Part shown: piece by piece, positions 4,546-21,366 of the stretch
How the letters are laid out: every line of letters begins with the position of its first letter
How positions within the stretch are numbered: position 1 is the first letter of the stretch
Virus record (IMG/VR): IMGVR_UViG_3300021961_000741
Coordinates: 1 to 21,366 of that record
DNA: 21,366 nt
Direction: 5' to 3' (one strand)
From: a virus
Notes under the pieces: generated by a model
The model's input: the letters and a program-made list of their open reading frames with translations, nothing else
Database searches by the model: none
What the model was told of the DNA's origin: nothing
Program-made: the position numbers and the translations under genes

Positions 4546-6174
4546 TTATCCTAATGCAATTGCAAGTGCAGTAGTAAAATCTTGAGTTGCAATTGTACCG
4601 TTTTCATCCGGCACGGTTAACGTTCGAGTCGTGCTGGTGGTAATCCCAGAACACTCAAACGCTAACTGCTTCGTTGCATCTCCATTGTCCTGAACTCGGA
4701 AGTTTGCATCAGAGAAGGTTGAAGGCAGCGCCGAGGTGTCGAGAAGGACATTACCTGCAAGATCGGGGAATGTAATCGTCCGGTTTGCAGTCAGTGTCGC
4801 TGTGGTCATCGTGACAGCGAAGTCACTCGTACCACCTCCACGGCCCTGAATAATAAAGCCGTCCTGAGTTGCAGCTTGACGGAAAGTTTGCCCGGTCGTG
4901 TTTGTAAATGTGTTGGCGCCCGTGAATGCGTTAGCAGTTCCAAGCAACGCAAATGTGCCGTTAGCATCCGGGAACGTATAAGTTCTCGTGGTGCTCGTAG
5001 TAATCGATGCGCTGCTGAAACGTGCGATCTTCGTGGCATCCGTAGCATCACGAATCGCGATACCAGAAACACCGCCGTTGGTGACAACTGCAGCAGAGGT
5101 TATAGATGTCAGACCAGCAATGGTTGTTGCAGTGCCGCCTAGAGCGATACCAGTAGAACCAACCGTGATCGAGCTGTTCGCCAGCTGTGCGTTCGGGATA
5201 GCGCTCGTTCCGAACTCACCCGTAGAATTGTTGTAGGTAAGGCCTGAACCAGTTGCAACGCTGAGTGACTCAAGCAGAGCGACAGTACCGCTCAAATTCG
5301 GCAGGTTGATTGCCCGATCAGCATCGGGATTGATGACTGAAAGCGTTGTCTCGTGTGCATCAGCACCGCTTCCCTCAAAGGTGATCCCGCTGGAGTTGAG
5401 AAGGATGCTGTTTGCGGCATCAGTTGCACCGATCGTGACCGCTGTACTAATGACAGAAGTCAGTCCATCCAGAGTCGTGGAACTGGCGCCAAGAGCAATA
5501 CTTGTTGTACCAACTGTGATCGTGCTGTTCGCCAGGTTCGCGTTGGCGATCGACGAACCAGTAGAAAGAAGAGTACCGCTGTTGTCAGGTAAGTTCAGCG
5601 CCCGATCTGCTGTCGGATCAACAACATTGAGGGTTGTCTCAAAGTCGTTTGCTGTTGAACCTTCGAAGACAATACCAGTTGAATTGAGCAGGATGCTGTT
5701 AGCAGCATCAGCTGTACCAATTAGAACCGAAGTGCTACCAATAAGGTTGGTTGATGTAACCGAAGTTAAACCACCAAGCGTCGTCGAAGATGCACCAAGG
5801 GCAATTGCCGTTGTGCCGATGGTGATGTCATCGTTCGCTAATTGCGAGTTAGGGATCGCACTGGTTCCGAACTCACCACTTGTGCTGTTATAAGTTAATC
5901 CGGAACCTGTGGCGACACTAAGGTGGGCACGGACCTCACCGGCAGAAGGACCAGTGTAAGTAATGACGCCACTTGTACTGTTGTAGCTAAGAGAACCGTC
6001 GCCACCAGAATCCGTAACAGAAATCGCACCACGCGCCCTCGCATTCGTGAAGTACTCATTAGTACCTTCTGTAAGGTCTGAAGTCGAATTGCCTGCAAAA
6101 TCGAGCTTATCAGTAGGAGTATTGACCTCCTCAAATAAGCCACTAACCAGACAAATAGCCTTCCTAGTTGCCAT
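4546..6174 (-). CDS. Repeat-rich long tail fibre-like protein
   Basis: 542 aa, Ser/Thr/Gly/Ala-rich, with no membrane segments. The head (residues 34-50, LTEGTNEYFTNARARG) is a common cyanophage fibre motif. The rest is built of diverged internal repeats: SVATGSGLTYN plus EFGTSAIPN at 86-110 and 305-328; LAN.xIT(V/I)G.T.IALG at 112-126, 214-228 and 331-345; DAANSILLNS with DRA(L/I)NLP at 156-197 and 252-292; and five (F/L/V)P(D/N)..G turns near 195, 291, 401, 469 and 521. Beta-helix or beta-roll folding is inferred. It ends in ALAIALG, like the next gene. It lies 4 nt before the Mtd-N-like gene. A 77-bp gap without a clear promoter separates it from the paralogue pair upstream. Confidence 0.8.
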   Translation of the reverse strand: MATRKAICLVSGLFEEVNTPTDKLDFAGNSTSDLTEGTNEYFTNARARGAISVTDSGGDGSLSYNSTSGVITYTGPSAGEVRAHLSVATGSGLTYNSTSGEFGTSAIPNSQLANDDITIGTTAIALGASSTTLGGLTSVTSTNLIGSTSVLIGTADAANSILLNSTGIVFEGSTANDFETTLNVVDPTADRALNLPDNSGTLLSTGSSIANANLANSTITVGTTSIALGASSTTLDGLTSVISTAVTIGATDAANSILLNSSGITFEGSGADAHETTLSVINPDADRAINLPNLSGTVALLESLSVATGSGLTYNNSTGEFGTSAIPNAQLANSSITVGSTGIALGGTATTIAGLTSITSAAVVTNGGVSGIAIRDATDATKIARFSSASITTSTTRTYTFPDANGTFALLGTANAFTGANTFTNTTGQTFRQAATQDGFIIQGRGGGTSDFAVTMTTATLTANRTITFPDLAGNVLLDTSALPSTFSDANFRVQDNGDATKQLAFECSGITTSTTRTLTVPDENGTIATQDFTTALAIALG

Positions 6175-6251
6175 CTTGCATACCTACATGGCTCACTTAG
6201 AGCACTAAGAATGAACCGTTTGTTATACCCATCCTACCAAGACTACCGTTT

Positions 6252-6716
6252 TTAACGGAGTAGGATAGGTGGTTCGATCTGGATGATGAATTCCGAGGTA
6301 GATGCTGCTTCACCAACGCGTGTCAGGAATCGACCTGCTGTAGAAGGTGGTGTTGTAGTAATGTTTCCAGCGCCAGAATCAGATAAATAAAAGATATCTC
6401 CAGCGTCTAATCCTGAGTCAGCAAGAACACCGACGATCAGAACGCGAACTTCTTCACCGGCTGACTTAGTTGTCTGGGCAAAACCAACGACCGTTGCTTT
6501 ATCAAGAGTGTCGTTAGCAATCGCTCGTCCAACCTTTCCATCACTAGCCCTGGAGAAGAGCGCGTCTCCTTGTGTCACATCTTCGAACCCTTCCGCTACG
6601 AAACCAGCGACGGAGTAAACCGTACGGCCAGCCATCGTATCTTTGAGGTCAATCAGAACCTGTGTGAGACCTACAGAATTAGGCGCATACGGTTCGTAAT
6701 TACTAATACCAGCCAT
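6252..6716 (-). CDS. Virion protein, shorter copy of a tandem paralogue pair
   Basis: 154 aa. One N-terminal docking-type motif (NYEPYAPNSVGLTQVLIDLK, residues about 6-25) is followed by a beta-rich domain: FEDVTQGDALF, VVGFAQT, VLIVGVLAD, AGDIFYLSDSGAGNITTTPP, STAGRFLTRVGEA and a final strand FIIQIEPPILL. The whole domain is alignable to the gene just upstream. The Gly-Asp-Ile-Phe-Tyr-Leu and TTTPPSTAG motifs are ones I recognise from marine phage tail or decoration proteins, with no firm role. Its start shares one base with the upstream stop (TGATG), so the pair is translationally coupled. A small palindrome (CCGTTTTTAACGG) spans its stop codon. Confidence 0.7.
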   Translation of the reverse strand: MAGISNYEPYAPNSVGLTQVLIDLKDTMAGRTVYSVAGFVAEGFEDVTQGDALFSRASDGKVGRAIANDTLDKATVVGFAQTTKSAGEEVRVLIVGVLADSGLDAGDIFYLSDSGAGNITTTPPSTAGRFLTRVGEAASTSEFIIQIEPPILLR

Positions 6717-7243
6717 CAGCGCAACCTAATTGGTGGTTCGAGTTGGATACTGAATTCTGTAGACGTTGCACCTTCGCCAACCCTGGTCACAAAATGACCT
6801 GCGGTGGAAGGAGGCGTCGTTGTGATAGCCCCAGCAGTTGCACTGAGGTAGAAAATATCACCTGCATCGATGCCAGTCAGACCATCAAGGAGGCCCGCAA
6901 CAAGAACCTTGACTTGGTTAGTAGCTGTCGCATCAGCATTGGCAAAACCGACGACCAAAGCCTCATCTGCGGTGCCATCTGCCTGGGCCAAACCACATTG
7001 ACCGTCACTGGTACGCATAAACAATGCCTGGCCTTTGTTCACATCTTCAAAGACCGTCGCATCAAAACCAACCCGAGAGGGCGCAAAGGTCGGGAAACCT
7101 TCTTTCAGGTCGATAATCGCGTCAACCAGACCGCGATAGTTCGGTTCGTACGGCTGACGGGTCATTGTGAACCCGTTGCCACGCATCAGGTCAACGAGAA
7201 CAGAAATAGCGCCTTCTATATTCGGTTCGTAACCAGTGGCCAT
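6716..7243 (-). CDS. Virion protein, longer copy of a tandem paralogue pair
   Basis: 175 aa. It has the same beta-rich domain as the following gene (FEDVNKGQALF, VVGFANA, GIDAGDIFYLSATAGAITTT, PPSTAGHFVTRVGEG, IQLEPPIRLR). Its N-terminus carries two copies of the YEPN..G.....(I/V)DL motif, one at residues 4-20 (GYEPNIEGAISVLVDLM) and one at about 31-48 (PYEPNYRGLVDAIIDLK); the shorter paralogue has only one. Extra motif copies could raise avidity for a virion partner. It is the first gene of the adsorption cassette left of the divergent gap and is read away from the plus-strand gene. The role as a tail or decoration subunit is inferred from family and position. Confidence 0.7.
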   Translation of the reverse strand: MATGYEPNIEGAISVLVDLMRGNGFTMTRQPYEPNYRGLVDAIIDLKEGFPTFAPSRVGFDATVFEDVNKGQALFMRTSDGQCGLAQADGTADEALVVGFANADATATNQVKVLVAGLLDGLTGIDAGDIFYLSATAGAITTTPPSTAGHFVTRVGEGATSTEFSIQLEPPIRLR

Positions 7244-7312
7244 ATGCTCGCACCTAATACTCTTATTTTAAATTGTCAACTACTTTAGAATAAATAAAAC
7301 GGTAAACATATA
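7244..7312. promoter_or_regulatory. AT-rich divergent intergenic region, possible bidirectional promoter
   Basis: This 69-bp gap is the only divergent gene junction in the window. On the minus strand a perfect TTGACA lies at 7274-7279, but the -10 options at the right distance are poor. On the plus strand AATAAATAA at 7289-7297 resembles the NATAAATAN late promoter of T4-like cyanophages and lies 15 nt before the plus-strand start codon. Neither is conclusive. Because both genes must start somewhere in or before this gap, some promoter activity here is plausible. Confidence 0.35.
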
Positions 7313-7561
7313 GTGACGCCCGAGACTTTAATGGCGATAATTAGCGCAGGATTTGCTGCTTTTGCTGGCTTAGCCAAAGCCTTGGGCCGTTTCAACGAAA
7401 AGCTAGATCGGAGGCTCGGTGTGATCGAGAAGAGCGTTGACGAGCTCGAAGATACCCTGCTCAGGGACTACGTTTTAAAGCAAGATTTCACACGCGAGGT
7501 TCAATCAATTCACCATAAACTAGACCGTATCTGGGAATTTATGGTGAACCAGAACCGTTAA
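7313..7561 (+). CDS. Small membrane-helix and coiled-coil protein, only plus-strand gene
   Basis: 82 aa with a GTG start. Residues 8-24 (AIISAGFAAFAGLAKAL) form one hydrophobic helix without charges. Residues 28-60 are a charged heptad-rich helix (FNEKLDRRLGVIEKSVDELEDTLL), followed by RDYVLKQDF and a second helix to LDRIWEFMV. One membrane segment plus a coiled coil fits a holin-like, spanin-like or membrane-anchored tail protein. I have seen similar short MTPE-starting proteins in cyanophages, with no proven role. An ATG at codon 7 (7331) is an alternative start with a weak GAGA upstream. The gene runs against all neighbours and its stop overlaps the stop of the next minus-strand gene by 4 bp, so the two are convergent. 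Confidence 0.75.
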   Translation: MTPETLMAIISAGFAAFAGLAKALGRFNEKLDRRLGVIEKSVDELEDTLLRDYVLKQDFTREVQSIHHKLDRIWEFMVNQNR

Positions 7562-7980
7562 ATCGCTACCCAAGCAGAAGTTGTTCCGTTAAACATAAAT
7601 AGACCTGGAGAAGATTTGTCATAGTGCAGCTGACCATCAATCGGGTTCGATGGGAAGCCAGAGGCCGACGTAGAAGCAACAGCCCTCACTGGTTCGAAAG
7701 ATGTACCGTCATAAATCTTGAAAATATTTGTACTGCTTTGGTCTAACCAGCTTTCGCCTTTACTGAAGCTCGTATAGCCAGTCGGAACGGCGTTAGGACC
7801 CGTGGAACCGACGTGAATCGGACCTACTTTGATCAGATCAGGCGTCGTCTGGCTATCGGCAAAATAAATACCTGGCTCGGTGGCGTTCAGGTTGACGGCA
7901 AACTCACCAGCACCCAGACGGTTCGGAAATACGCGGTCATAAAGAAGACTGGAGCGTAAACGTAATATCTGGGTTGTCAT
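7558..7980 (-). CDS. Fibre/adaptor-type virion protein
   Basis: 140 aa. Residues 4-50 (LRLRSSLLYDRVFPNRLGAG, EFAVNLNATEPGIYFADS, LIKVGPIHVG) form the N-terminal beta domain found at the start of many phage fibres: a GE(F/L)AVN strand, a PG(I/L)YFAD turn, and KVGP.HVG. Residues 72-82 (SKGESWLDQSS) and the C-terminus (GQLHYDKSSPGLFMFNG) each read like a beta-hairpin bearing a WLD or FMFNG motif that is usual in short tail proteins of marine phages. There is no tip domain, so an adaptor or short spike is likely. Its ATG shares a base with the stop of the 765-aa gene (TAATG), implying translational coupling with it. Confidence 0.7.
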   Translation of the reverse strand: MTTQILRLRSSLLYDRVFPNRLGAGEFAVNLNATEPGIYFADSQTTPDLIKVGPIHVGSTGPNAVPTGYTSFSKGESWLDQSSTNIFKIYDGTSFEPVRAVASTSASGFPSNPIDGQLHYDKSSPGLFMFNGTTSAWVAI

Positions 7981-10277
7981 TAGTTATTAATGTAGATTCC
8001 ACAGTCAATGTTAGCAAACGGAGCGGTAGTACGCCCACCATTGACATATGTACCACAGTCCAAAGCCTCGATTGAAGCGCGAACAGGCTCGCCATTACGG
8101 TAAGTCTCGCAATCAATCTCAGCGAACTGGAAGTCTGCCGTGTAATCGGTCAAAGGCTGATCGAGCATGCCGAATTTGGCATCACTCATCAAATTAACCG
8201 GGATATTAAGCAGCTTCTGCATCATAAATAATGTCGTTGTTGTGCTGTTCTGCGTTATCCCGTTTCGATCCAAGTTCCCGTTCTGGTCACGCCGGATCGT
8301 GTCCGTCGCCATCATGGTTACGAGCTGCGGAGTGAAATTACCTACCTGAACAGGCTGGTTACGGTCACCCGTTGTCGAGAGAGCGCCAGTCCAGGGCATT
8401 CCGTAGCCCATCATCTTCATTCGATCGAGTTGCTCCCGAGTTTGGTCAAATTCCTTATGAAAACGCTCGTAAAACTTCTGTAAAGCTTCGCCAACCGGTT
8501 GATCACTTGGTTCATAGAGCCAAGTCTTAACGTATTCGTGATTTCGGAGGTTCCTGACAACACAATAACCCGAAGTGGTCAGTGAAACAGGAGCAACAAC
8601 CAGAAACTGGTTCTCATTCAAGATTTCTGTGATCGTAAACTCGCCACTCGTGACGTTTCCACTCGTAATATCTAATTCGATGCGTGTGTTAGCACCTAAA
8701 CCATGATTTGGAGCAGTGACTGTAATATTTGGGCCTCCAGACTGTATATAAGTAGATGAAATATTGATCGGATCGTTTCCTTCGTCATGGACGATTGAGA
8801 ACATCGCTGCATAGATATGTTTACACCACCGAATTTGATAATATTTAAGGTTGTTGTAAGAATATTCAGCTGTATCTTGATATTCCGGGATCTGGTAAAA
8901 ATTATTCACATTCACAAACTTCATGCTGGAGAAAATACCAACATCGTCTGTCGTATCGACAGTGGTGCCCTCTCGATCGATGCGTGAGCCCCCACTCAGA
9001 GAGGTAAGTGGTGTCGAGGGAAAGCGGCGCTTACGTGCTTCAGACGTGACATCGAGATTCTCTCTGCGCATGAAGTCGGCACAGGTGCATTGGTAGCGAA
9101 TCTCCGTCGTCAGGTAGCGTCCGGTCGCAAAACCACGGTGCGCTGGGACAACTGTACTCGTGAGTCCGTTAGATGTCGTTGCACCGTAGCTATCGTCGCG
9201 TTGGAACAGAATTTCGTTGGTGTCTCCGTCTGTTCCGGTGACTGTATAGCCGACATAATTCTCATAATCGTAACCACGAAGGCGTCTATTAACAACTAAG
9301 TTCCCAGATGTGCTTCCAGTGGCATAATTCTCAACCGTAAACTGCGTCGCATTAAGAACAGTGACCTCAAATAGGCCACTCTGTCCTGCTCCAGAGATCA
9401 CTGCCAGGAAAACTTCGTTTCCAGTCGACAGACCGTGTGGAGAAGTACATGTAACAGTGACCGTTGTGGAGGCTCCACGGCTGTAAACCGAGAAAATACC
9501 TGGATCTCGCTCTAAAATTCGGTCAGCAAGACGTTCTCCAGCGAAGAAATTGACAGGAGTCGGTATGAAACGAATCTGAACACGTTGTTCAGTCCAAAAA
9601 GGATCAGAAAAAGTCGTAACTTTCTGAATTTTTGCTGTGCCAGACGCAGTTAGAGAGGCAGAAGCAGTAGCGGTGAACGTATTTTGAGTTGTTACCGTGA
9701 TTGCCAGCGTCTCGGAAGCACCTGCACCCGTGACAATCTTGATATAGATGCTATCGCCCGTCGCATAACCGTGATCTGAACATGTAATTGTCAGATTTGT
9801 ACCGGATTGCGAATAAGTTGCATTCTGAGCTGTAGTTAAATACCGTACTGCATCGATAGGTAGACCAAAATTGTAAAAACTGAAGCTGTTTGTGTCGCGT
9901 ACGCCAACCATCTGCTCCCCGATCTCTGTTTTGCTGCTGGGGAACATGAACATCCGCGCAGGGATGAAAACATTCGGGAACTGCTGGAACGCGCAGTACA
10001 TCCGAAAGTCGCCTCTAGTGTTCCTGCCCGTCGACTTGGAGCCGAACAAAGTCTGCGTTAAACAGTAGAGCTCATAGCCACGGCGCCAACGAGCCCAGAG
10101 GGATTCCTGGTTGTAGTAGCGGATATCGCTGCTTAAAACTGAGTTGGAGGGTTCAAAGTCAAAAGGATTCTGACCTCTGTCCTGGAGTGAGCGCTGATTC
10201 TTTTTGATCGAGTCGCTGAACCCACCAACCAGATTTCTATCGAAGCTGCCGCCAAAAAATGATTTATTACGCGGCAT
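7980..10277 (-). CDS. Large multidomain virion protein with SWIM-like motif and inserted modules
   Basis: 765 aa, no membrane segment. The core (residues 1-150, 220-260, 340-500, 580-715) is aromatic-rich, for example YYNQESLWARWRRGYELYCL and QFPNVFIPARMFMFP, and I cannot name it. A C397-T-C399 ... C485-K-H487 arrangement fits a SWIM-type CxC...CxH zinc-binding motif with an unusually long middle. Three beta modules are inserted at 154-219, 265-333 and 510-577. Residues 596-622 are helical (ALQKFYERFHKEFDQTREQL). The C-terminus (718-765) has an 18-residue repeat around IDC. Position between connector genes and fibres, and size, suggest a neck, tail or baseplate component. It starts 8 nt after the 257-aa gene, which carries the same module. 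Function is unknown; virion location is inferred. Confidence 0.75.
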   Translation of the reverse strand: MPRNKSFFGGSFDRNLVGGFSDSIKKNQRSLQDRGQNPFDFEPSNSVLSSDIRYYNQESLWARWRRGYELYCLTQTLFGSKSTGRNTRGDFRMYCAFQQFPNVFIPARMFMFPSSKTEIGEQMVGVRDTNSFSFYNFGLPIDAVRYLTTAQNATYSQSGTNLTITCSDHGYATGDSIYIKIVTGAGASETLAITVTTQNTFTATASASLTASGTAKIQKVTTFSDPFWTEQRVQIRFIPTPVNFFAGERLADRILERDPGIFSVYSRGASTTVTVTCTSPHGLSTGNEVFLAVISGAGQSGLFEVTVLNATQFTVENYATGSTSGNLVVNRRLRGYDYENYVGYTVTGTDGDTNEILFQRDDSYGATTSNGLTSTVVPAHRGFATGRYLTTEIRYQCTCADFMRRENLDVTSEARKRRFPSTPLTSLSGGSRIDREGTTVDTTDDVGIFSSMKFVNVNNFYQIPEYQDTAEYSYNNLKYYQIRWCKHIYAAMFSIVHDEGNDPINISSTYIQSGGPNITVTAPNHGLGANTRIELDITSGNVTSGEFTITEILNENQFLVVAPVSLTTSGYCVVRNLRNHEYVKTWLYEPSDQPVGEALQKFYERFHKEFDQTREQLDRMKMMGYGMPWTGALSTTGDRNQPVQVGNFTPQLVTMMATDTIRRDQNGNLDRNGITQNSTTTTLFMMQKLLNIPVNLMSDAKFGMLDQPLTDYTADFQFAEIDCETYRNGEPVRASIEALDCGTYVNGGRTTAPFANIDCGIYINN
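7983..8126 (-). repeat. C-terminal 18-residue tandem repeat in the 765-aa protein
   Basis: Three units end the protein: FAEIDCETYRNGEPVRAS (718-735), IEALDCGTYVNGGRTTAP (736-753) and FANIDCGIYINN (754-765, cut short by the stop). The pattern is (I/L)DC..Y.N(G/N) with one cysteine per unit and an exact 18-residue period. Confidence 0.85.
8547..8750 (-). repeat. Inserted beta module, copy 3 (765-aa protein)
   Basis: Residues 510-577. It reads YIQSGGPNITVT, then NHGLGANTRIELDITSG, GEFTITEI, NQFLVV and LTTSGYCVV. The order of motifs is the same as in the other three copies, diverged in sequence. It resembles the E1 FCCH-type beta domain found as inserts in phage structural proteins; this name is from memory. 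Confidence 0.65.
8817..9089 (-). other. SWIM-like zinc-binding motif (CxC...CxH) in the 765-aa protein
   Basis: Residues 397-487: CTC at 397-399 and CKH at 485-487, separated by 85 residues that include the basic stretch SEARKRRFPS. SWIM fingers are defined by CxCx(n)CxH. Four possible metal ligands are present in the right order; the long gap is unusual, so metal binding is only a prediction. Confidence 0.5.
9279..9485 (-). repeat. Inserted beta module, copy 2 (765-aa protein)
   Basis: Residues 265-333: YSRGASTTVTVT, PHGLSTGNEVFLAVISG, GLFEVTVLNATQFTVENY, GSTSGNLVV. It has the HGL..G..V.L....G, (G)x(F)xVT and TSGN.xV elements shared by all four copies. Confidence 0.7.
9621..9818 (-). repeat. 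Inserted beta module, copy 1 (765-aa protein)
   Basis: Residues 154-219: TYSQSGTNLTIT, DHGYATGDSIYIKIVTG, LAITVTTQNTFTATASASLT, ASGTAKIQ. The opening TYSQSGT is nearly identical to TYAQSGT of the copy in the neighbouring 257-aa protein. Confidence 0.7.
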
Positions 10278-16800: not shown

Positions 16801-17937
16801 TCACTCAACGATGGTGAAGGCACAGGTCACGAAGTCCTTGTTCAGGTTCGCGAAACCGGCGTACAGCTGCCAAATCAGGATGATGAAGCGGCTGAAATCG
16901 TCGTTGTTGTTGATCAGAACCTGAGCGTTAGGACCACCGATACCAACGCCAACAGCCTGAGGACCGAAGAACAGGCCAGCAGGGGTGGTGCGGGTAGCGC
17001 TAGTGCCGTCCAGGCTGACGGTTGCGGTCTTGTCGGGGAAGTTGGTCGATTCGAAGAAGCGAACACCCTCAAACACGAAGCCAGAAGGCATCACGGGCTC
17101 GCCAGCAACGAACTGGGCTTGGCCATACTGACCACCGCCGTAGATAGCACCGTTGGGACCCATGGCGCCCATCAGGGGGTTGCCTTGGCCCATGCCGGGA
17201 TAACGGGCGACTTCACGGAAGCCTTGGTCAGCACGCAGATCCTTCATGAAGGAGGGATCAGCGATACAACGGTAGTAACCGTCAGCGAAGACGGGAACGT
17301 TACGCTTACGCAGGGACTTAACCACCTCGAGGAGGTCAGTCTTCACGTTGAACTTGAAGCGCTCAGAAGCGTACTCAGTTGCAGAGTAAGCAGAGACGGT
17401 AGAACCAGTCTTGGTGTGGCCGTTGGGATAGTAGTAACCACCCTGGGTGTCGGAGGACTGACCACGTGCTTCAGCCTTGAACAGTTCGTCCAGGAACACG
17501 CGATCGCGCCAGCGGCGATAGTCATCGAGCAGGGTCAGCGAACCGATGGACTGGTGGAACATGTTGAGGTTCCCGGTGTCCAGCAGCAGACGCTGAGCGG
17601 TCATCAGAGTCTCGCGAGCAATCTTGAAGGTGCTCGGGAGGTTGGTGTTGTTCGGGTCAGCAGGACCGGTGTACTCACGCAGAGACACCAGCACTTTGTC
17701 CTTAACGATCGACCGGCTGTTGGCGGTACCGATGGTTTGATCCTGGGTACGCTCACGGCTGGTCTTCGTGCCAGGGTTACCGAAGAAGCGGTAACGATCC
17801 AGCTGAACGGTCTGACCGGGCTGTTTGGTGAAGTCGTGGACAACTACGGGCTCAGTGGCCATCTCCACGATATAAGCTGGGTGGGGACGGTACAGCTCCG
17901 CGCCCAACAGCTTGGGGAAATCGTTATCAATAAACAT
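16801..17937 (-). CDS. Major capsid protein
   Basis: 378 aa. Residues 34-55 (VHDFTKQPGQTVQLDRYRFF) are followed by REYTGPADPNN, a long helix region (IARETLMTAQRLLLDTGNLN, WRDRVFLDELFKAEARGQ), FADGYYRCIADPSFMKDLRA with FREVARYPGMG, and a late beta part (VMPSGFVFEGVRFFESTNFP). The GYY..IADP...DLR segment resembles the (I)HP...DLR motif of N4 gp56-type and similar HK97-fold capsid proteins. Size, a place after the scaffold-like gene, the flanking terminators and the paired structural gene support a major capsid role. The assignment to HK97 fold is from family knowledge, not measured. The start ATG is the only good one. Confidence 0.85.
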   Translation of the reverse strand: MFIDNDFPKLLGAELYRPHPAYIVEMATEPVVVHDFTKQPGQTVQLDRYRFFGNPGTKTSRERTQDQTIGTANSRSIVKDKVLVSLREYTGPADPNNTNLPSTFKIARETLMTAQRLLLDTGNLNMFHQSIGSLTLLDDYRRWRDRVFLDELFKAEARGQSSDTQGGYYYPNGHTKTGSTVSAYSATEYASERFKFNVKTDLLEVVKSLRKRNVPVFADGYYRCIADPSFMKDLRADQGFREVARYPGMGQGNPLMGAMGPNGAIYGGGQYGQAQFVAGEPVMPSGFVFEGVRFFESTNFPDKTATVSLDGTSATRTTPAGLFFGPQAVGVGIGGPNAQVLINNNDDFSRFIILIWQLYAGFANLNKDFVTCAFTIVE

Positions 17938-18820: not shown

Positions 18821-19819
18821 TCACTCCATCACGAGCATCTTCTGGCGGAAGACCTCGGGGTTGGCGGAGGCTTGGTTCAGATAGCGCCAAGCGTTAGCGG
18901 GATCGCGATCGGCCAGGTTGCCGAAGCTGTTCCAGAACTCAGAGGGGTTGCCCTGGGCCTGAGGCTGCGGGGGAGCAGGCATTTCAGGACGCTGGGGAGC
19001 AACGGGGCGCTGGAACTGCTGACCCACGGCTTGAGCCTGGGGCATAGCGGGAGCTGCTTGCTCTTCGGGGACGGGATAAGGACCGTTCTCACCGAAGAAC
19101 TCACAGGTGTAGTCAGCGAGCACGTCGGGATCAGTCAGGATGGTCTCGTAAGCTTTGTGCTCAGCGGAGAGTTCCTGAAGCAGGTTGACGGCTTCGATCA
19201 GCTGCTGATTGGTTTGAATCAGAGCGTCTTCGATCTGACAAGCGTAGTCATTGAGGACCTTCGGAACATCGGGACCGAAGTGGTCAATGATTTCAAGACT
19301 TGCCTCGCTTACCCCGTTGGCGCGGAGCTGGTCCGGGCTGATTTCCAGCGAAGTTTGGGAAGAGTTGGGCGAGTAAGCCTGGCTGTTGTTGATCCCAGGC
19401 GTAGAGGTCTGCATCCCCAGGCTGTTGAACTGGGTTGCTTGTTGGGAACCGTAGTTGGCCTGCCCGAGATCCTGAGGGCTCTGAATCGATTGTTGACCCA
19501 GGGACGGGAATTGGACGGGCGAACTCAGGAGCCCGACCACCTTGTTGAACGCCTCCTTGTAGGGGTTCTCCGCTTGTGGAGCCGCCTGGGGTGCTTGGGG
19601 GTACGACGCTGTAGGGATTGACTGGTACCCGGTCACCCCCATCTGGGCCTGCATTTGCGGGGCTGGGGCCGCCGTTTGTTGGTAAGGCGCCACCCATTGG
19701 GTATTGGTTGAAACCGCTGGAGCCTGAGCCGCCGTCTGGGCCGGAGCCGCGTAGCTGCTCGGCTGGGTCGGGGATACTTGGGGTGCCGATTGGGTCGGCA
19801 TTGCGGTATCGGCCTGCAT
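18821..19819 (-). CDS. Scaffold-like head assembly protein, 5' half overlapping the portal gene
   Basis: 332 aa. Residues 1-80 and 252-292 are Pro/Gln/Ala-rich and probably disordered; residues 84-100 (ENPYKEAFNKVVGLLSS) and about 160-250 (IEDALIQTNQQLIEAVNLLQ, then ELSAEHKAYETIL) are helical/coiled coil; the C-terminus (WRYLNQASANPEVFRQKM) is another helix. Composition, a coiled-coil middle and the place between portal and capsid genes fit a scaffold. The ATG at 19819 has a Shine-Dalgarno AGAGGTAA (complement of 19823-19830). The first 176 codons lie inside the portal frame, shifted by one base. In that part NNG codons such as GCG, CCG and ACG are common, but GCG is absent from the rest, suggesting two-frame constraint. 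An internal start (for example M136) is possible. Confidence 0.75.
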   Translation of the reverse strand: MQADTAMPTQSAPQVSPTQPSSYAAPAQTAAQAPAVSTNTQWVAPYQQTAAPAPQMQAQMGVTGYQSIPTASYPQAPQAAPQAENPYKEAFNKVVGLLSSPVQFPSLGQQSIQSPQDLGQANYGSQQATQFNSLGMQTSTPGINNSQAYSPNSSQTSLEISPDQLRANGVSEASLEIIDHFGPDVPKVLNDYACQIEDALIQTNQQLIEAVNLLQELSAEHKAYETILTDPDVLADYTCEFFGENGPYPVPEEQAAPAMPQAQAVGQQFQRPVAPQRPEMPAPPQPQAQGNPSEFWNSFGNLADRDPANAWRYLNQASANPEVFRQKMLVME

Positions 19820-21366
19820 AGGTTACCTCTTTTTGTAGGCTTTCGAGAGTTCGGTAAAGGAAAGGTGTGAGGTCAAGCCTCGGATCCGCAGCCATCGGGA
19901 GATTCGGTTGCTGCGGATGTGGTGTCCGCATCTCTTGATTGACTAGATCAATAAATGCGGAGTAGGCCCTCTGTACTTCCCCAACCATTCGGAACGGGAA
20001 ACCGGAGAGCATGCTCGCGATTTCGTCGTCCGTTTTCGAAGGGAATAAATACTTCAGTGCTTCAATGCTATCAACACCCAACTCTTGCAAGTTACGTGTG
20101 AAGATTGACTGGTTGAGTTTATCCTGTGCAGTATCTTCATAAACAGGCCCCATCCATCGCCAATCAACCTGGCGATCTCCATCAGGCGCTAATCCAAGAA
20201 CACCATCAGGAATCTCTTTGGTCTCGATCGCCGTATCAATGGCCTTCTGTAGCTTTTTCTCATAGTTCGCTTTTTGTTTTTCGTATTTAGCGACAGCAGC
20301 TTCGTCTTCGAGGTCTTCGGGAGGAGCTGGATACTTGATTCCGGAAGCGTAGGCTAATGACTTGCGGAAGATCTGCTCCTCCTGGAAGATCATTAACTCG
20401 AAGCACTTACAGATACCGTAGGTATACAGTTGCAAGCACTTCTTCTTAGCAGTTGCACTTACCCGTCCATAGGCTGATTTAATCTCCGTAGCAGTTACAT
20501 TTGTAATGCTAAGGTCGTCGATACCGCCTAGGGCAAGCCGGATCTCACTACGAAGTTGTTCGGCATACCGTGCCTGATCAGTACTTACAGCGTTCGGTGT
20601 AATAAAACCGACACGATCTGTGGGCTCCAGGTTGGCGATAACCCTGGGCACACGCATGCCTTGACCGGGTCTACCGTTATATCCAGAGACCTGGCGAGTA
20701 ATCGGGTCTTGCTTGTAAGTAGAGCTGAAAAGATTTAAATCAGATCCAAAACCTGATTGGCTTGAGATGCTCGGACGCTGCGCAGTATCTTGATCACCGC
20801 TCTCAATGATGTCCTGCTTGGGACGAGAAGAAAGCAGGGTCGGGTTACCGAAGAAAGAAAGGTTTGCACGAATGTTCTTTACCATCTCGTCGTGAACGAC
20901 GATCTGTTCAGCAATACCGTCGAACTCGCCTGAACCGTCAGTGCCGAAAGCGTCAGGATTGTTGAAGACTTCCACGCATGGAATGAACTCCATGCTGTTC
21001 GCCACGACCTTCTTGTCGTACATGGCGAAATCAGTATCGGGCATGTCGAAACTGATTTCCTGCTCGCTGTGATACTCCTCGATCTCAGTAGCAGTAATAC
21101 GGAGACGCATGTAGCGCTTATCCGTATTCAGGCCCACGCCACGGAAACCCTTGGAGGATTTCACCTTGTAGGCGTAAATGATGATTACTTCTTCAAGATC
21201 ACCCTCGGGTGAGTAGTAGGTGCGATATGCGTTCTTATCGAACCAGTAGAGCCGGTAGGTCTTCTTGGTGGGGCGAATGTAGAAGAGGCCTTTACCGTAT
21301 GCCAGGAAGCGATCCCAGATGGCATCTAAGCGTGCGTCCAGCTTGTTGAATTTAATGACCTGCTGG
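19293..21366 (-). CDS. Portal protein, 5' end cut by window edge
   Basis: The frame is open from the right edge (first full codon at 21365) to TGA at 19293: 690 codons in the window. The GTG at 21164 lies inside the gene and is not the start. Conserved-looking parts include WDRFLAYGKGLFYIRPTKKT, RLYWFDKNAYRTYY and EVIIIYAYK near the edge, then EYHSEQEISFDMPDTDF, MEFIPCVEVFNNP and AEQLRSEIRLALGG (in-window residues about 268-281), QLYTYGICKCFELMIFQ and NQSIFTRNLQELGVDSIEAL. These fit the clip, stem and crown layout of portal proteins, and a head-to-tail gene order supports it. The core ends near VTYAGRYRNADP; the last 174 codons (Gly/Pro/Ser-rich, ending RQRGKRGKS) overlap the scaffold-like gene in another frame. 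Confidence 0.8.
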   Translation of the reverse strand, partial: QQVIKFNKLDARLDAIWDRFLAYGKGLFYIRPTKKTYRLYWFDKNAYRTYYSPEGDLEEVIIIYAYKVKSSKGFRGVGLNTDKRYMRLRITATEIEEYHSEQEISFDMPDTDFAMYDKKVVANSMEFIPCVEVFNNPDAFGTDGSGEFDGIAEQIVVHDEMVKNIRANLSFFGNPTLLSSRPKQDIIESGDQDTAQRPSISSQSGFGSDLNLFSSTYKQDPITRQVSGYNGRPGQGMRVPRVIANLEPTDRVGFITPNAVSTDQARYAEQLRSEIRLALGGIDDLSITNVTATEIKSAYGRVSATAKKKCLQLYTYGICKCFELMIFQEEQIFRKSLAYASGIKYPAPPEDLEDEAAVAKYEKQKANYEKKLQKAIDTAIETKEIPDGVLGLAPDGDRQVDWRWMGPVYEDTAQDKLNQSIFTRNLQELGVDSIEALKYLFPSKTDDEIASMLSGFPFRMVGEVQRAYSAFIDLVNQEMRTPHPQQPNLPMAADPRLDLTPFLYRTLESLQKEVTYAGRYRNADPIGTPSIPDPAEQLRGSGPDGGSGSSGFNQYPMGGALPTNGGPSPANAGPDGGDRVPVNPYSVVPPSTPGGSTSGEPLQGGVQQGGRAPEFARPIPVPGSTIDSEPSGSRAGQLRFPTSNPVQQPGDADLYAWDQQQPGLLAQLFPNFAGNQPGPAPRQRGKRGKS

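Follow-up and report, generated by a model that had tools for sequence, protein, structure and literature searches.

A stretch of about 500 nt in the head module of an S-EIV1-like virus is, with a probability that we put at roughly 0.93, a true dual-coding overlap that would encode both the C-terminal tail of the portal protein and, from a separate start and one base out of register, the N-terminal half of a scaffold-like protein. The window, that is the whole stretch of DNA that was analysed, is 21,366 nt long (positions 1 to 21,366 of the IMG/VR record IMGVR_UViG_3300021961_000741). Among the relatives of this virus, both frames and the start signals of the internal gene are conserved, and selection acts on the two frames. 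We infer from the sequence that both products are translated and serve in head assembly. A ribosome coming from the portal start would read through the overlap and produce a portal C-terminal tail of ~170 residues, predicted to be disordered, and a second ribosome would enter at the internal Shine-Dalgarno sequence and ATG and read one base shifted to give the first half of the scaffold-like protein. Such a mechanism implies two separate initiations on one mRNA, and the internal start would probably provide the scaffold with a separate and higher output.

Organisation of the head genes

On the minus strand, the portal ORF runs in from the window edge (21366) to a TGA stop at 19293-19295. The scaffold codons start one base after the portal codons, and the overlap contains the last 174 portal codons, corresponding to the C-terminal tail, together with the first 175 scaffold codons, corresponding to the N-terminal half. 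The first-pass annotation of this DNA had described a 527-bp overlap with frames one base apart, a basic portal tail, a helical scaffold segment and a Shine-Dalgarno sequence ahead of the scaffold. The overlap and its register were confirmed from the ORF coordinates 19293-19295 and 19817-19819, and the RQRGKRGKS tail, the NPYKEAFNKVVGLLSS segment and the GAGGT Shine-Dalgarno sequence, which is conserved in relatives, were all found in the window. The features are the following.

19293..21366, minus strand: portal protein gene, an open frame 5'-truncated at the window end, with 690 aa in the window
18821..19819, minus strand: scaffold-like gene of 332 aa, with its ATG within the portal gene, located between portal and major capsid protein
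19293..19819, minus strand: probable dual-coding overlap of 527 nt, kept in 302 distinct sequences, with purifying selection on both frames
19825..19829, minus strand: Shine-Dalgarno GAGGT of the scaffold gene, within portal codons for E-V
19823..19825, minus strand: TAA that closes the scaffold frame one codon ahead of its ATG in the window clade
19817..19819, minus strand: scaffold ATG, made of the portal Tyr codon TAT and the following G
19520..19567, minus strand: conserved scaffold helix NPYKEAFNKVVGLLSS within the overlap, residues 86-99 being predicted helical
19353..19385, minus strand: conserved portal-tail motif QPGLLAQLFPN within the overlap, predicted as a short helix
19296..19322, minus strand: basic portal C-terminus RQRGKRGKS; relatives have similar basic ends
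19094..19267, minus strand: predicted long scaffold helix, residues 185-242, beginning just past the overlap end
18827..18946, minus strand: predicted C-terminal scaffold helices, residues 292-331
16801..17937, minus strand: major capsid protein gene, given for context (phrog_1357, major head protein, E 1e-16)

Elsewhere in the window, a 542-aa ORF (4546-6174, minus strand) contains repeated GTTAIALGASSTTLGGLTSVTS-like and DRALNLPDNSGT-like segments and probably encodes a tail fibre or decoration protein of repetitive build.

In the isolate S-EIV1 (KJ410740.1), the order of portal, scaffold and capsid genes is identical to that of the window, and the overlap is unannotated in GenBank. In the coordinates of our S-EIV1 locus, L002, the portal gene occupies 5802-8105 and the full scaffold ORF, of 325 aa, 7552-8529, with an overlap of 554 nt. 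In the GenBank record the portal is 'hypothetical' and the scaffold is listed only as 8128-8529 (L002), its last 133 aa (AHV82225), apparently because its start lies within the portal gene. Prodigal excludes long overlaps (PMC7457138), and this rule together with the S-EIV1 record implies that the scaffold-like protein of other annotated members may have been cut short as well. The window capsid protein is 71.7% identical to a plus-strand ORF of S-EIV1. As a separate observation, this S-EIV1 major capsid gene (L002 9049-10275, KJ410740.1 ~60784-62010) appears misannotated, the record placing in that region a hypothetical protein on the minus strand (AHV82227) and a short one on the plus strand (AHV82228).

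Conservation of the overlap among relatives

Relatives were taken from IMG/VR and belong to the S-EIV1-like, cyanophage-related viruses, a widespread group. Part of them was found by portal-motif patterns without requiring a scaffold start, deeper lineages were reached through L356 and L402, and the portal core and the scaffold half outside the overlap served as anchors. Both frames were open at the same offset, over 443-677 nt, in 302 distinct overlap sequences (91 of the window portal group, 141 of the S-EIV1 group and 70 of the L356 group). In L356, the deepest lineage, the portal is 42% identical to that of L005, a window-type relative with a complete portal homologue of ~752 aa, and the scaffold only ~30% identical over the C-terminal half, and the overlap still measures 506 nt. 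Together with L361-L440, L356 represents a deep sister clade of the S-EIV1-like phages with the same portal-scaffold overlap, in which some contigs reach 74-94 kb.

Frequent stops or frameshifts in one frame, which the first-pass annotation had named as a refuting outcome, were not what the homologues displayed: next to the 302 intact overlaps, the frames were broken in three contigs, L246, L275 and L430. Both proteins continue in shifted frames in L430 and L246, and a deletion displaces both frames in L275. Since these indels move the two frames together, sequencing or assembly error is their likelier cause. One contig (IMGVR_UViG_3300047546_001245, present as L182 and L320) has a portal-frame stop ~180 nt into the overlap, near the contig end, and was counted as evidence neither way. 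In L343 an in-frame stop was found in the scaffold frame, downstream of the overlap.

No relative devoid of the overlap was found in the IMG/VR related-locus and pattern scans. The overlap thus appears older than the split of all sampled lineages, and phylogenetic dating of the first frame is for the same reason unusable. With portal, scaffold and capsid as queries, tblastn against 50,697 phage records gave S-EIV1 as the only match, and a search of genome contigs gave one MAG contig.

Purifying selection on both frames

If the scaffold alone were coding, its third codon positions should collect the differences and its second positions the fewest. Counted over disjoint pairs of close relatives, differences at scaffold positions 1, 2 and 3 amounted to 38, 90 and 172 in the overlap versus 44, 24 and 499 downstream. 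Scaffold position 2 therein varies 2-2.4 times more than position 1, and the relation is reversed downstream. This pattern is as expected from portal coding, since the third base of the portal codon falls on scaffold position 2 and its first base on position 3.

Overlap-aware dN/dS was estimated by a simple pairwise counting scheme of our own in the style of OLGenie, which is not a full likelihood model, and scaffold-only downstream DNA read in the pseudo-portal frame was used as a control. In the closest pairs, the ratio was 0.116 for the scaffold (CI 0.077-0.156) and 0.295 for the portal tail (0.183-0.489). More diverged pairs gave scaffold and portal-tail values of 0.156 and 0.387, then of 0.201 and 0.500. 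All intervals, for the scaffold and the portal tail, lie below 1, and the pseudo-portal controls were 0.65 and 1.26. In the L356 clade, the portal-tail ratios were 0.354 (0.171-0.507) and 0.437 (0.357-0.517), with controls of 1.73 and 2.01. Frame-specific purifying selection, which the first-pass annotation had proposed to look for, is therefore present for the scaffold frame and for the portal tail in two clade sets.

Portal coding through the overlap, another of its claims, is borne out by the excess at position 2 and by contrasts between substitutions of one type at one scaffold codon position, a matching that removes transition bias and codon-position effects. Transversions at scaffold position 2 favoured portal-synonymous over portal-nonsynonymous changes by a factor of 1.86 (p 3e-4; control 0.87), and scaffold-synonymous transitions at position 3 favoured portal-silent changes by a factor of 2.78 (p 8e-11; control 1.06). 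In the L356 clade, the position-3 transition ratio was 3.77 (p 7e-5; control 0.85) and the position-2 transversion ratio 1.38, in the right direction and alone not significant (p 0.15; control 0.88).

These contrasts also bear on the proposal that synonymous variation is low on account of an RNA structure or a regulatory element, with no second protein. Synonymous conservation does peak around the start of the scaffold, where one would expect a signal for translation. Against this proposal, the position-2 excess and the difference between portal-synonymous and portal-nonsynonymous changes follow the portal codon structure, which an RNA element would not respect over 500 nt, and we give such an element next to no weight.

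Constraint is not evenly distributed along the overlap, the ratio of position-2 to position-3 differences varying between segments (chi2 78, p 2e-15). Scaffold constraint dominates scaffold codons 1-60 and 81-110, the latter containing the NPYKEAFNKVVGLLSS helix, and portal constraint dominates scaffold codons 61-80 and 111-145.

Codon composition and the chance of an open frame

Within the scaffold frame of the window, alanine codons inside the overlap are GCG 9, GCC 7, GCA 5 and GCT 5, versus GCT 12, GCC 6, GCA 1 and GCG 0 downstream. The hand count of GCG on which the overlap was first suspected (9 of 26 inside, 0 of 19 downstream) is thus exact, and the bias extends to 152 unique relatives, where GCG makes up 1457 of 4432 alanine codons inside the overlap versus 133 of 2389 downstream.

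When synonymous codons were permuted over the whole gene in the window, the portal frame was open that far with P = 0.005, and such whole-gene shuffles gave P of 0.005 or less in five genomes. It is nonetheless conceivable that the scaffold frame alone is coding, the portal frame being open by chance or composition and its tail being a harmless read-through. In agreement with this reading, permutation within the overlap codons only gave P 0.029 for the window and 0.10 for S-EIV1, and the portal product of the overlap is predicted mostly disordered. On the contrary, two independent clade sets gave purifying selection on the portal frame and their downstream controls were clean, no intact relative has an early portal stop apart from L182/L320 near its contig end, and the portal tail holds residues (P724, L730, F731, P732 and N733 in L005 numbering) that are invariant across 44 portals. 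A portal tail that is only read-through is consequently very improbable.

Codon usage in the overlap is poorer than in the single-coded parts for both frames, which counts against dual coding. Mean log-odds were highest in the portal tail (-0.054), followed by the scaffold part (-0.098) and the third frame (-0.163), and the portal tail scored better than the scaffold part in 87% of 141 genomes. This weakly suggests that the portal frame is the older one; the hint is taken as weak because selection on the scaffold frame is stronger.

The internal translation start

The ATG is preceded by CCTACAAAAAGAGGTAACCT in the window clade and by AAAAGGAGATG, with a short spacer, in the S-EIV1 clade. The Shine-Dalgarno sequence is kept as AAAAAGAGGT in the window clade, as AAAAGGAGAT in the S-EIV1 clade and as AGAAGGAAG in a further set, and it is weak in the L356 clade, as in gcgagagctgacctATG. 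The portal Glu codon that lies in it has G as third base in 152 of 152 sequences of the window and S-EIV1 clades, where A would be synonymous; the further set has A at this base, yet keeps AAGGA. In the same way, the Tyr codon holding the ATG is TAT in all 117 portal-motif matches, found with a pattern that had permitted TAC. Among the 302 overlaps, the start is ATG in 300 and GTG in 2. One of these two is L425, where the ATG has disappeared (TAC AGT G) and an in-frame GTG directly downstream could serve as start, which suggests a compensation that would keep scaffold initiation.

These signals bear on the view that the portal frame alone is coding and that the scaffold starts after 19293, the open frame upstream being incidental. 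In the S-EIV1 deposit the annotated start (AHV82225, 133 aa) does lie beyond the portal gene, and predicted order in the scaffold sets in near the overlap end. However, scaffold codons in the overlap have dNN/dSN of 0.12-0.20, the confidence intervals reaching no higher than 0.22, the ATG and the Shine-Dalgarno sequence are kept within the portal gene, with TAT retained in 117 of 117 cases though TAC is synonymous for the portal, and the scaffold-frame helix NPW/YxxAFNKVV is conserved. A scaffold N-terminus after 19293, the other refuting outcome named by the first-pass annotation, therefore finds no support, and the chance that it is correct is minimal.

Programmed frameshifting to a portal-scaffold fusion, in place of separate initiation, would be consistent with the shared strand, the constant offset and an A-rich AAAAAG near the start. 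It is at odds with the TAA just before the ATG in the window clade, at which a shift made before the start would terminate. Moreover, the Shine-Dalgarno sequence and the start codon are conserved at the right spacing and the A-rich stretch varies between clades, and a fusion of this kind is hardly credible beside independent initiation of the scaffold-like protein.

Nature of the two proteins

The portal assignment rests on family and gene order, together with a tentative likeness of fold. The protein matches phrog_20475 (E 9.5e-188), a profile of the head and packaging category that bears the name 'virion structural protein' and not portal. An AlphaFold2 model of the L005 portal, of low confidence (mean pLDDT 43), gave Foldseek and VIA matches in the PDB that were nearly all phage portals, over residues 12-461, with a best Foldseek E of 6.8e-5 and VIA Z up to 8.4. 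The gene order fits a portal, near the terminase large subunit and with the capsid gene downstream: in S-EIV1 the terminase lies a few small genes upstream, and in L356 a terminase-like ORF, assigned by eye, directly upstream. In the L005 tail, helices are predicted at 714-722 and 726-730; the QPGLLAQLFPN-type motif is absent in L356. Sequence searches of solved structures (PDB) gave no credible match for the portal or the scaffold-like protein, and a Pfam search gave nothing at the cut-off.

The name 'scaffold' was a guess of the first-pass annotation. Gene order and predicted helices agree with it; family membership does not add to it, the PHROG search having given no match for the window protein, and one of 47 scaffold relatives matching the scaffolding protein phrog_4080 only at E 0.16. 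Helices are predicted at residues 185-229, 231-242 and 292-331 in a model of low confidence (mean pLDDT 48), and a structural search with this model retrieved as sole match a vimentin helix (Z 4.4), which is uninformative. In the overlap-encoded part, N85, P86, A90, F91, N92, V95 and L98 are invariant. By analogy, helices 292-331 would occupy the position of the coat-binding helix-turn-helix of the P22 scaffold (PMC10275583). Given the internal-scaffold gene order and the rough architecture, the label is reasonable, at the level of an inferred role.

Statements on the fold of both proteins are weak, as both models have low confidence. With this proviso, the last long portal helix (L005 562-580) is predicted to end near the scaffold start, the ordered part of the scaffold to begin at residue 162, near the portal stop, and the scaffold product of the overlap to be mostly disordered, one short helix excepted. 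Portal order ending where the scaffold starts and scaffold order beginning where the portal stops point to an overlap that would encode two flexible extensions rather than folded domains.

Comparison with known overlaps and implications

Long same-strand gene overlaps are an already known kind of arrangement. In phage lambda, the Nu3 scaffold is made from an internal start in the head gene C, beside the portal gene and in the same frame. A scaffold with an internal start is common to both cases, but here the frames differ and yield two unrelated sequences. The Rz/Rz1 spanin genes of lambdoid phages are a same-strand, out-of-frame overlap of two functional genes; they resemble the present case as an out-of-frame overlap in tailed phages and differ from it in being lysis genes, with a smaller overlap and no part in head assembly. 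In phiX174 (Microviridae), the internal scaffolding protein B is encoded out of frame inside gene A. The likeness is that of a phage scaffolding protein encoded in an overlapping frame of another essential gene. However, phiX174 is a small ssDNA phage in which the partner is a replication protein, whereas the present overlap joins the portal gene of a tailed dsDNA phage of ~80 kb to only the 5' half of the scaffold gene.

Overlapping frames and scaffolding protein B have been noted for phiX174 (PMC2935103). In HIV-1 overlapping genes, function is segregated and constraint is divided between the frames along the overlap (PMC9119678), which is similar to the split of constraint found here, in an unrelated virus and unrelated genes. 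A survey of viral reference genomes found that 84% of annotated overlaps are <50 nt (PMC7017920). No report of an out-of-frame portal/scaffold overlap in tailed phages was found in the open-licence literature.

Scaffold mutations block portal incorporation in P22 and herpesvirus, and the contact between portal and scaffold is a recognised open question in head assembly (PMC10275583). It is possible, though we consider it unlikely, that the overlap is kept because its two products are partners: inside the procapsid, the portal tail would touch the N-terminal half of the scaffold, and this contact would assist in recruiting exactly one portal per head. If the two were partners, the shared DNA would force both sequences to evolve together.

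The finding is that of a long, old and strongly supported overlap joining two apparently essential genes of the head. It occurs in viruses of ~80 kb, for which a shortage of coding space is not usually assumed. The S-EIV1-like overlap exposes an annotation blind spot, and the family offers hundreds of natural sequences in which to study how one DNA stretch may serve two proteins.
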